Assembly (NCBI GenBank): GCA_024123915.1
Contig: CP099650.1
Span: 6,324,001 to 6,388,000 of the forward strand
Direction: 5' to 3'
Length of the DNA stretch: 64,000 bases
Origin: Oxalobacteraceae bacterium OTU3CAMAD1
GTDB taxonomy: Bacteria > Pseudomonadota > Gammaproteobacteria > Burkholderiales > Burkholderiaceae_D
In this document: in pieces, positions 48,045 through 50,935 of the stretch
Layout of the letters: every line of letters starts with the position of its first letter
Position numbering within the stretch: the stretch's first letter is position 1
The notes under the pieces: model-generated
Told to the model about the DNA's origin: nothing
The model's input: only the letters and a program-made list of their open reading frames with translations
The model's database searches: none
Position numbers and translations under genes: made by a program

Positions 48045-49124
48045 TTACTTCGAGGCGGCTTCCGCTGCCTGCGTGGCAAGACGGCGCTGGCGCACGGCGG
48101 CGGCCAGGCCCTGCAGCACCTGCACGCTGCTGTCCCAATCGATGCAGCCGTCGGTCACCGACTGGCCGTAGGTCAATTCCTTGCCGGGCACCAGATCCTG
48201 GCGGCCCGCAACGAGGTGCGACTCGACCATCACGCCGACGATGCGGCTGTCGCCGCCGGCGACCTGTTGCGCGATGTCGGCGCACACCGGCACCTGGTTC
48301 TCCGGCTTCTTGGAGCTGTTGGCGTGCGAGGCGTCGATCATCAGGCGCGCGGCCAGGCCTTGCGCGGCGATCGCCTTGCAGGCTTCCTCCACGCTCGCGG
48401 CGTCGTAGTTAGGCGCCTTGCCGCCGCGCAGGATGATGTGGCAATCCTCGTTGCCGGCGGTCGAGACGATGGCCGAGTGGCCGCCCTTGGTGACCGACAG
48501 GAAATGGTGCGGCTGCGAGGCCGCCTTGATCGCCTCGACGGCGATTTTGACGTTGCCGTCGGTGCCGTTCTTGAAGCCGACCGGACAGGACAGGCCGGAC
48601 GCCAGCTCGCGGTGCACCTGCGACTCGGTGGTGCGGGCGCCGATCGCGCCCCAGCTGATCAGGTCGGCGATGTATTGCGGGCTGATCACGTCGAGGTATT
48701 CGGTGCCGGCCGGCAGGCCCAGCTCGTTGATGTCGCGCAGCAGTTCGCGCGCCATGCGCAGGCCGTCGTTGATGCGGAAGCTGCTGTCCATGTACGGGTC
48801 GTTGATCATGCCCTTCCAGCCGACGGTGGTGCGCGGCTTCTCGAAGTACACGCGCATGACGATTTCCAGGTCGCCGGCCAGTTCGCGGCGCAGGTGGATC
48901 AGGCGGTTGGCGTATTCCATGGCCGCCTTCGGATCGTGGATCGAGCACGGGCCGATGACCACCATCAGGCGGTCGTCCTGGCCGTGCAGGATGCGGTGCA
49001 GCGCGATGCGGGCGTTGGCGGCGGTGTGCTCGGCCGCCTCGCTGCAGGCGAATTCGCGGATCAGGTGGGACGGTGGAACCAATTCCTTCATCTCGCGGAT
49101 GCGCAGATCGTCGGTACGGGGCAT
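48045..49124 (-). CDS. aroG: 3-deoxy-7-phosphoheptulonate (DAHP) synthase, AroG type
   Basis: It catalyses the first committed step of aromatic amino acid synthesis, condensing PEP and erythrose-4-phosphate. The 359-residue protein is a class I-alpha (AroF/G/H-type) enzyme: VVIGPCSIHDPKAAMEYANR, MRVYFEKPRTTVGWKGMIND, ISWGAIGARTTESQVHRELA, VGFKNGTDG, GGHSAIVSTAGN, IDASHANSSKKPENQ, VESHLVAGRQDL and SVTDGCIDW. GGAG lies before ATG 49124. Its promoter, aromatic leader peptide and terminator lie at 49157-49366, so expression is predicted to be attenuated by charged Phe/Tyr tRNA. Which amino acid inhibits the enzyme cannot be read from sequence alone. Confidence 0.96.
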   Translation of the reverse strand: MPRTDDLRIREMKELVPPSHLIREFACSEAAEHTAANARIALHRILHGQDDRLMVVIGPCSIHDPKAAMEYANRLIHLRRELAGDLEIVMRVYFEKPRTTVGWKGMINDPYMDSSFRINDGLRMARELLRDINELGLPAGTEYLDVISPQYIADLISWGAIGARTTESQVHRELASGLSCPVGFKNGTDGNVKIAVEAIKAASQPHHFLSVTKGGHSAIVSTAGNEDCHIILRGGKAPNYDAASVEEACKAIAAQGLAARLMIDASHANSSKKPENQVPVCADIAQQVAGGDSRIVGVMVESHLVAGRQDLVPGKELTYGQSVTDGCIDWDSSVQVLQGLAAAVRQRRLATQAAEAASK

Positions 49125-49156
49125 GCTGTTCTCCAAGTATTCAAAAATGTCGGGGT

Positions 49157-49187
49157 AAAAAAAAACCGCCTCATCAGGCGGTTTTTT
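49157..49187 (-). terminator. Attenuator terminator upstream of aroG
   Basis: On the minus strand AAAAAACCGCC (49187-49177), loop TGATGA, GGCGGTTTTTT, with the T run continuing to 49157. It lies 33 bases before the aroG ATG and 45 bases after the leader peptide stop. The ascending arm ACCGCCT (49182-49176) can instead pair with AGGCGGT in the leader (49245-49239). Confidence 0.9.
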
Positions 49188-49231
49188 CAGGATTTGCGGG
49201 AACTCGTTTTTACTTCTACGTGCACCGGCCG

Positions 49232-49297
49232 CTACTCCACCGCCTTGGGGTTGGAATCGCTAAAGTAAAAGTAGCCGGTAAAGAAGAAGTGGGTCAT
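49232..49297 (-). CDS. aroG leader peptide (21 aa, Phe/Tyr-rich)
   Basis: ATG at 49297 opens 21 codons beginning MTHFFFTGYFYFS and ending at TAG 49234-49232. Seven of nine consecutive codons (residues 4-12) are Phe or Tyr (five Phe, two Tyr). The control codons contain ACCGGCTAC (49279-49271), which can pair with GTAG...CCGGT (49235-49224) across the stop. The C-terminal codons contain AGGCGGT (49245-49239), able to pair with the terminator's left arm. This is the classical layout of a pheL/trpL-type leader. No strong Shine-Dalgarno is seen before the ATG. Confidence 0.8.
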   Translation of the reverse strand: MTHFFFTGYFYFSDSNPKAVE

Positions 49298-49336
49298 GAA
49301 CGTGTTCGACAGGTATTGGGTAAATATCGTGGAATG

Positions 49337-49366
49337 ACTATAACGCCAACGCCCAAGGCTTGGCAA
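49337..49366 (-). promoter_or_regulatory. Sigma-70 promoter of the aroG leader
   Basis: On the minus strand TTGCCA (49366-49361), an 18-bp spacer and TATAGT (49342-49337). A start near 49330 leaves about 33 nt before the leader peptide ATG. Confidence 0.65.
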
Positions 49367-49402
49367 GCTATTTCTTGACTAGCTTCAATGGTTACCCGCC
49401 GC

Positions 49403-49470
49403 CAACCCGAACCCCGGATGCCGGGGTCGGACCCGCAGGGTCCGACCCCATGTGGCCGCCGTGCGGGTTT
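49403..49470. repeat. GGGGTCGKACCC palindromic element, copy 6
   Basis: CAACCCG (49403) and CGGGTTT (to 49470) flank CCGGGGTCGGACCC-GCA-GGGTCCGACCCC. It lies just after the tldD stop (49475) and upstream of the aroG promoter. Confidence 0.86.
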
Positions 49471-49474
49471 GGGG

Positions 49475-50935
49475 TTACGCCGTGCCGCCCACCGTCACGC
49501 CATCGATGCGCAAGGTCGGCTGGCCCACGCCGACCGGCACGCTCTGGCCTTCCTTGCCGCACACGCCCACACCCGGGTCCAGGCGCATGTCGTTGCCGAT
49601 CATCGAGACCCGGTTCAACACTTCCGGGCCGTTGCCGATCAGCGTCGCGCCCTTGACCGGATAGGTGATCTTGCCGTTCTCCACCATATAGGCCTCGCTG
49701 GCCGAAAACACGAACTTGCCGTTGGTGATGTCGACCTGGCCGCCGCCGAAATTGACCGCGTACAAACCGTTCTTGACCGACGCCAGGATTTCCCCGGGGT
49801 CCTTGTCGCCGCCCAGCATGTAGGTGTTGGTCATGCGCGGCATCGGCAGGTGCGCGAACGATTCGCGCCGCGCGTTGCCCGTCACCGGCATCTTCATCAG
49901 GCGCGCGTTCATCGTGTCCTGGATGTAGCCTTTCAGGATGCCGTCCTCGATCAGGGTCGTGCACTGCGTCGGATTGCCTTCGTCGTCGATGTTCAGCGAA
50001 CCGCGGCGATCGGCCAGGGTGCCGTCATCGACCACCGTCACGCCCTTGGCGGCGACGCGCTCGCCGATGCGGCCGGAGAACGTCGACGAACCCTTGCGGT
50101 TGAAGTCGCCCTCGAGGCCGTGGCCGATCGCCTCGTGCAGCAGGATGCCGGGCCAGCCCGGTCCCAGCACGACCGTCATCGGGCCGGCCGGCGCCGGACG
50201 CGCGTCCAGGTTGACGACCGCCGACTTGACCGCCTCGGTGGCGTAGAAGTCCAGCAAGGTATCGCTGAAGTAACCGTAATCGTAGCGGCCGCCGCCACCG
50301 GACGAACCCATCTCGCGCCGGCCGTTCTGCTCGACGATGACCGTCAGCGACACCCGCACCAGCGGACGGATGTCGGCCGCCAGCACGCCGTCGCTGCGGA
50401 CCACCAGCACCACGTCGTATTCGCCGGCCAGGCCCGCCATGACCTGCACCACGCGCGGATCTTTCGCGCGCGCCATCTTCTCGATGCGCTCGAGCAGCTT
50501 GACCTTGGCCGTCGCGTCCAGCGAAGCGAGCGGATCGTTCGGCATGTACAGCGAGCGGCCGCCGGTCGGCGTCATCGCGCCGGCCACCTTGATCTTGCCG
50601 GCGCCGGCACGGGCGATGGTGCGGGTCGCGGTGGCCGCGTCCATCAGCGCCGCTTCGGAAATTTCGTCGGAGTAGGCGAAGGCGGTCTTGTCGCCGGAAA
50701 TGGCGCGCACGCCGACGCCCTGGTCGATCGAGAAGCTGCCGGTCTTGACGATGCCCTCTTCCAGGCTCCAGCCTTCGTTTTTGGTGAACTGGAAATACAG
50801 GTCGGCGTAGTCGACCTTGTGCGTGAACATCGCGCCCAGCGTCTTGAGCAGCTTGGCCTCGTCCAGCCCGAACGGCGTCAGCAGGATGTCGCGGGCGACG
50901 GCCAGGGTGGACAGGTTGGGTTCAAAAGGCTTCAT
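49475..50935 (-). CDS. tldD: Metalloprotease TldD
   Basis: TldD forms a heterodimeric zinc protease with TldE/PmbA that degrades unfolded peptides and matures some peptide natural products. The 486-residue protein has the zinc site HEAIGH (267-272) in [20 protein letters not shown], preceded by the Gly-rich [13 protein letters not shown], and ends with [23 protein letters not shown] 50935 (after CCGGAG) is used instead of the frame start at 51022. pmbA is not in the window. It forms a cluster with the nitrilase gene and yhdP, an order shared by many proteobacteria. Confidence 0.95.

Follow-up and report, generated by a model that had tools for sequence, protein, structure and literature searches.

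The 5' leader of aroG, on the minus strand of the 64-kb stretch of DNA analyzed here (the window), is very probably (rough probability, 0.88) a ribosome-mediated transcription attenuator governed by the supply of Phe and Tyr, to which Trp would be added in many lineages. Leader and gene form a unit spanning positions 49366 to 48045. The parts of the attenuator, their geometry, and their conservation are apparent from the sequence and from comparison with relatives, and we infer from these leader translation, premature termination, and an amino acid response. The first-pass annotation had proposed a complete Phe/Tyr attenuator at this site, and every feature it listed was found where it had been placed. 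The proposal is supported by the conservation in relatives of the leader frame, the promoter, the terminator, and the antiterminator core, and by folding with a masked ribosome; it is tempered by a weak helix between regions 1 and 2 and by Trp as a third control residue in many leaders.

In the proposed mechanism, RNA polymerase would start about 7 nt past TATAGT and transcribe a 21-codon open reading frame (ORF). With charged Phe and Tyr tRNAs plentiful, the ribosome would reach the stop codon and cover the strand AGGCGGT; the ACCGCCT/AGGCGGT hairpin and its U tract would then form, stopping transcription before aroG. With these tRNAs scarce, the ribosome would stall in the Phe/Tyr run, leaving the leader AGGCGGT free to capture ACCGCCT ahead of synthesis of the terminator's right arm, and transcription would read through into aroG. 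With no ribosome on the leader, region 1 pairing may hide AGGCGGT and give termination by default, which is the least certain step.

Promoter, leader peptide, and aroG

The aroG gene (positions 48045 to 49124, minus strand; ATG at 49124) encodes a 3-deoxy-7-phosphoheptulonate (DAHP) synthase, matched by NCBIfam models NF006723 (590.6 bits; cut-off, 568) and TIGR00034, and sits after the end of a tldD-like gene. The sigma-70-like promoter TTGCCA-N18-TATAGT (49337 to 49366, minus strand; TTGCCA at 49366-49361, TATAGT at 49342-49337) is present as first proposed and was the sole promoter-like site in a scan of 48900-49600 (shuffle mean, 0.3). The form TTGCNN-N17/18-TATAGT was seen upstream of 33 of 111 leaders, with different hexamers in other lineages, in a survey that took the best of many positions without shuffle control, included poor promoters, and left out L047 and L078, whose upstream DNA was too short. 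The TyrR operator pattern, TGTAAA-N6-TTTACA, had six matches in the window at three or fewer mismatches (4.25 expected by chance), none of them near 49100-49500. No T-box was matched by Rfam, the only gathering-score match in the window being a tRNA, and none of the Rfam leader families (Phe_leader, Trp_leader, Leu_leader, and others) reached gathering score at the aroG leader; the best on the same strand was Leu_leader (24.7 bits; cut-off, 50; E, 0.26), extending from the leader stop to the terminator.

The leader ORF MTHFFFTGYFYFSDSNPKAVE (49232 to 49297, minus strand; ATG at 49297, TAG at 49232) has 21 codons, of which F4, F5, F6, Y9, F10, Y11, and F12 are control codons; codons 4 to 12 read F F F T G Y F Y F and are thus aromatic at seven of nine positions, bearing out the earlier description. 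It is the window's only ATG-initiated ORF of 10 to 45 codons with at least five aromatic codons in any nine. Shuffled windows held on average 0.23 ORFs with at least five such codons and 0.03 with at least six, and runs of seven or more occurred in 0 of 30. No clear Shine-Dalgarno sequence was seen upstream of the leader ATG in the window sequence.

That the ORF arose by chance ahead of an ordinary terminator is extremely improbable: weak model matches read elsewhere in the source genome and in related genomes do include loci that lack an aromatic leader, some of them with terminator-like hairpins, but the shuffled windows yielded no such ORF and the ORF is conserved in frame in relatives, on which grounds this explanation was rejected. 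The distance from the ATG to the control block was 27, 30, or 33 nt in 30, 18, and 2, respectively, of the 50 Oxalobacteraceae-type leaders (out of 53) in which the block pattern was found, always in frame, as expected of a reading frame. Phe was encoded by TTT at 78% of Phe codons in leaders, versus 15% in 79 aroG genes.

Phe occurred within the control run of all 53 Oxalobacteraceae-type, 31 Burkholderiaceae-type, and 28 other leaders, and Tyr in 51/53, 31/31, and 23/28 of these, respectively; Trp was found in 10/53, 30/31, and 18/28. Oxalobacteraceae-type peptides commonly contain ...FYFSNSNPKAVE, and Burkholderiaceae-type peptides MSAKFYFYFFWYLRPLADREG. The N terminus, the C terminus, and the frame past the run vary among relatives, with frame shifts downstream of the aromatic run in L005, L020, L051, and others. 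Leaders of “Candidatus Burkholderia humilis” (L054) and Caballeronia megalochromosomata (L055) are likewise shifted past the run, the frame of the former continuing into the terminator.

The variability of both termini and of the frame past the run makes it very unlikely that the peptide is itself the product, a conserved small protein encoded by a separate gene before aroG and followed by its own terminator. The strong conservation of the Phe/Tyr run, and a promoter and terminator of the ORF's own, would suit such a gene; the leader nevertheless lies ahead of aroG in the loci read, and 48900-49600 offers only the one promoter-like site.

In 23 of 109 leaders, the best promoter-like match places the -10 hexamer no more than 9 nt ahead of the ATG; tallied by hand, these comprise 18/27 from other groups and 5/82 of the Oxalobacteraceae and Burkholderiaceae types (2 of these 5 being from Duganella, L005 and L042). 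Such leaders may be leaderless, a prediction from consensus matches without shuffle control. Distances of 6 to 9 nt past a -10-like hexamer were observed in L005, L042, L098, L100, L101, L161, L163, L165, and others.

Terminator, antiterminator, and the predicted switch

An intrinsic terminator (regions 3:4; 49157 to 49188, minus strand) precedes the aroG ATG, with the hairpin at 49188-49159 and a T run to 49157, as had been annotated. Its left arm, region 3 (ACCGCCT; 49176 to 49182, minus strand), is also the partner of the antiterminator strand, region 2 (AGGCGGT; 49239 to 49245, minus strand), which occupies leader codons 18 to 20. The fold of 49330-49124 had a z score of -2.45, with 3 of 200 shuffles equally good. 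A generic terminator scan of 48900-49600 listed no terminators, though the inverted repeat is plain, probably because the scan pairs the A tract with the U tract and leaves too few T residues past the stem. A hairpin with a U tract was present in the window and in 79/79 leaders of the filtered set described below. In the A1 alignment (27 rows), the terminator helices were 95.6% and 98.7% paired, and the loop-closing pair was swapped between A-U and U-A in 7 of the 24 rows with letters on both sides.

The AGGCGGT:ACCGCCT pairing proposed earlier is likewise present at its sites, and its GGCGG/CCGCC core recurs in relatives. The 7-bp match in the window had a p value of 0.085 against shuffles, and only 34 of 79 leaders showed complementarity beyond that of shuffles at the 0.05 level. 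The antiterminator was 91.4% paired with a covariation score equaled by 81 of 500 shuffles; because its core is nearly invariant, covariation is no test of it. Of 112 leaders, 107 have GGCGG followed by a downstream CCGCC..GGCGG hairpin pattern; among 110 leaders, GGCGG lies in leader frame 2 in 98, in frame 0 in 7, and in frame 1 in 5. The reading frame, the terminator, and the GGCGG/CCGCC antiterminator core are thus kept while the peptide changes.

Region 1 (ACCGGCTAC; 49271 to 49279, minus strand), in leader codons 7 to 9, has weak to moderate support; its partner GTAGCGGCCGGT (49224 to 49235, minus strand) spans the leader stop codon. The 1:2 helix was 90.5% paired in A1, and one pair took three forms (G-C in 16 rows, U-A in 7, and C-G in 1, with 3 unpaired, of 27). 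Across all 18 A1 pairs, 18 cells were changed on both sides versus 5.7 in shuffles (0/500), and the pairs with any two-sided change numbered three, as in shuffles (286/500). When 30 rows were placed on an aroG tree, one Massilia group of eight contained the C-G row and all but one of the seven U-A rows; the 1:2 covariation would thus represent about two or three events. The best 1:2 complementarity reached p 0.05 against shuffles in 2/28, 3/25, 1/31, and 3/26 leaders by group. RNAalifold consensus folds recovered the terminator, and the named 1:2 helix was absent from the A1 fold; in the Burkholderiaceae-type fold, the first codons paired with the GGCGG strand and not as region 1:2. The protector helix is therefore a weakly supported, putative element and the weakest part of the model. 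The pairing of region 1 with GTAGCGGCCGGT thus survives as sites that exist with one covarying pair, but the events are few and the complementarity in most leaders does not surpass that of shuffled sequences. The compensatory stem changes expected in relatives were similarly found in part, in the terminator swap and the one 1:2 pair, but not in the antiterminator, whose covariation was no better than that of shuffles.

Leaders were folded only as far as the terminator loop, with pairing barred under a 30-nt ribosome footprint (110 leaders; L173 and L106 were dropped). In the window leader, the antiterminator probability was 0.00 without a ribosome, and 0.94 to 1.00 with the A site on codons 4 to 12; it was still 0.99 at codon 14 but dropped to 0.00 at codon 15 and stayed there as far as the stop. 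Across the 110 leaders, the median probability was 0.01 with no ribosome and 0.00 at the stop codon, against 0.99 for the median stall. At its maximum over the stall positions, the probability passed 0.5 in 101 leaders (but not in 9) and was higher than without a ribosome by over 0.2 in 76 (but not in 34); at the stop codon, the probability was below 0.1 in 77 and at least 0.1 in 33. Mean probability was 0.73 at aromatic codons (n = 780) versus 0.21 at others (n = 1,444), a gap much of which is due to codon position: within codons 4 to 14 only, the means were 0.75 and 0.57, respectively, and the position-stratified difference was 0.21. Out of 770 aromatic codons among codons 4 to 20, 752 fell at codons 4 to 14, which places the control codons where ribosome stalling would release the antiterminator strand. 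By calculation only, an antiterminator sharing the terminator's left arm is thus predicted to become available when the ribosome stalls on the control codons.

Probabilities below 0.1 without a ribosome were obtained for 83% of Oxalobacteraceae-type leaders versus 72% of shuffles, for 29% of Burkholderiaceae-type leaders versus 33%, and for 46% of others versus 58%; in 29 Burkholderiaceae-type leaders, the mean was as high as 0.63 even without a ribosome. This last value, together with the weakly supported 1:2 helix, would fit a true attenuator terminator on which leader translation acts mainly via coupling, Rho access, or RNA stability and not through a 1:2/2:3/3:4 switch. We consider that unlikely, given that nearly all aromatic codons (752 of 770) sit at positions where ribosome stalling would release GGCGG and that GGCGG occurs with its matching hairpin pattern in 107 of 112 leaders.

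Conservation and spread

Among the contigs of relatives searched with AroG, the best 80 (Oxalobacteraceae and Burkholderiaceae-type genera) were filtered for at least five aromatic codons in 10 plus a hairpin; leader and terminator were found before aroG in 78, the filter failing for L022, which has a tldD-to-aroG interval without a leader, and L054. The relative set left out these two and the paralogue L002. The covariance model R1 gave one strong match in the source genome (163.1 bits; next, 18.4). Five extra matches at 18.4 bits or below were rejected as further strong copies, the one opened (L224) being without an aromatic leader. Out of 79 family genomes, 63 had one match each at E values of 1.5e-12 or lower, 71 had some match at E values up to 0.01, and 8 had none. 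Seven loci from weak or divergent matches comprised three leaders before aroG (L232, L233, and L234) and four loci with no aromatic leader (L224, L229, L230, and L231).

Across the order, AroG was matched in 122 of 160 genomes, and the region upstream of the best match was read for 97, plus three paralogue regions. An aromatic leader followed by a CCGCC/GGCGG hairpin was found in 36 of the 97 aroG regions and 13 of 32 family groups, as tallied by manual reading and not as the output of one filter; 61 aroG regions and all three paralogue regions had no such leader. The 78 of the best 80 relatives agree with the expectation that the Phe/Tyr codon run would be conserved upstream of aroG. In the wider class, 40 regions were read of 99 genomes with a match, and leader plus hairpin occurred in two, both of one family group (38 without). 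The numerous absences across the order and the class count against the attenuator reading. The second AroG of the source genome has no such leader upstream. L085 and L022 are one locus, whose missing leader therefore enters both surveys. Leaders hand-picked for the counts left out L090, L097, L109, L143, and L185, which are also leader-like, and the L092 and L192 regions end at contig ends. Aromatic frames in group f26, L207, L218, and L222 were rejected, being without the leader-plus-hairpin arrangement.

The leader was absent in some genomes of about 2 Mb (L158, L160, L102, and L085) and in genomes of 3.7 to 4.4 Mb (L099, L107, and L150), and present in genomes of 2.0 to 2.4 Mb (G302, G334, and G361). 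L022/L085, L102, and L158, from genomes of about 2 Mb, share the window's arrangement of aroG behind the end of a tldD-like gene but have no leader. L150 (family group f42) retains a CCGCC/GGCGG terminator before aroG with no aromatic leader and is possibly a decayed attenuator. The distribution suggests that the attenuator may be old in the order and lost in many families.

A broader reading, put forward tentatively, is that an aroG attenuator shared by several betaproteobacterial families responds to the aromatic amino acid supply as a whole (nearly all leaders carrying Phe and Tyr, and most Burkholderiaceae-type ones Trp too), that its RNA is leaderless in many families, with the first codon of the control peptide at the transcription start, and that it could take the place of repression of the TyrR type at the enzyme where the shikimate pathway begins.

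Relation to known attenuators and significance

An attenuator for a betaproteobacterial DAHP synthase had been put forward as undescribed, and a literature search of partial coverage found no report of attenuation for betaproteobacterial aroG; DAHP-synthase attenuation is, however, known elsewhere. It is thus not new in general: the mechanism is classical, and the setting, betaproteobacterial aroG, seems to be undescribed. The comparisons below draw on excerpts of the sources cited.

In Escherichia coli, pheA (with leader peptide pheL) and pheST are attenuated by Phe-tRNA charging (PMC11802643). These systems are alike in leader peptide and attenuation and differ in their target genes and in that the aroG leader mixes Phe and Tyr codons, with Trp in many lineages.

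For the rise in aroF transcription of Corynebacterium glutamicum under Phe limitation, Neshat 2014 is reportedly the original source. That aroF is under the aroR leader with Phe-Tyr-Phe, its transcription going up on Phe limitation and Tyr availability being reported as without effect (excerpts of PMC11802643 and PMC4046766). It is alike in having a leader peptide before a DAHP synthase; the lineage is distant, and the likeness is one of description, not of sequence.

The Acholeplasma uORFC-13-1 motif is a predicted upstream ORF plus terminator before aroF (PMC8632094), alike in that arrangement before a DAHP synthase and different in its U run coding at least one Phe, its lineage, and its status as a prediction only. 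Putative attenuators are listed for Vibrio aroAIalpha_Y>tyrA in the Merino database (Table 7 of PMC1173090); these also would precede a proteobacterial DAHP synthase but belong to a gammaproteobacterial operon with tyrA and are likened here without leader or structure. The RNA of the Sinorhizobium meliloti trp leader (peTrpL) begins at the ATG of the leader ORF (PMC7298713), as predicted for many of the leaders that belong to neither the Oxalobacteraceae nor the Burkholderiaceae type; it differs in its Trp codons and trpE(G) target, and the window leader would have a 5' untranslated region (UTR) of about 33 nt. In excerpts of further papers, the reach of TyrR control in Vibrionales includes aroG (PMC5343134), processing or attenuation is given as the origin of 82 short 5' UTRs in a Burkholderia (PMC5688073), and the patterns of proteobacterial attenuators are conserved over large distances (PMC1262725), which fits the fixed GGCGG/CCGCC core.

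Elsewhere in the source genome, trpE is preceded by a Trp leader, MSSIKKHNVNQTGSIEAWLWRRWQSWQN, with an inverted repeat and a T run behind it, likely an ordinary trp attenuator. The Trp-rich ORF at this locus (L239; G000:C1, upstream of trpE near 1317308-1317748:-) includes AWLWRRWQSW. No short ORF with at least three aromatic codons in nine was found within 600 nt upstream of pheA or pheS in this genome. A terminator-like inverted repeat with a T run stands directly before pheS (L237; G000:C1, near 3406810).

In Ralstonia, according to an excerpt of PMC6379268, when one of the two DAHP synthases is deleted, the other is expressed at a 10- to 20-fold higher level; an aroG attenuator might bear on this finding. 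The mixed Phe, Tyr, and Trp codons, together with the predicted leaderless leaders, form a natural series on how several amino acids are combined, and the same series would be useful for following attenuator evolution while a short core stays fixed. The aroG leader provides a concrete account of how many betaproteobacteria could tune the entry step of aromatic amino acid synthesis.
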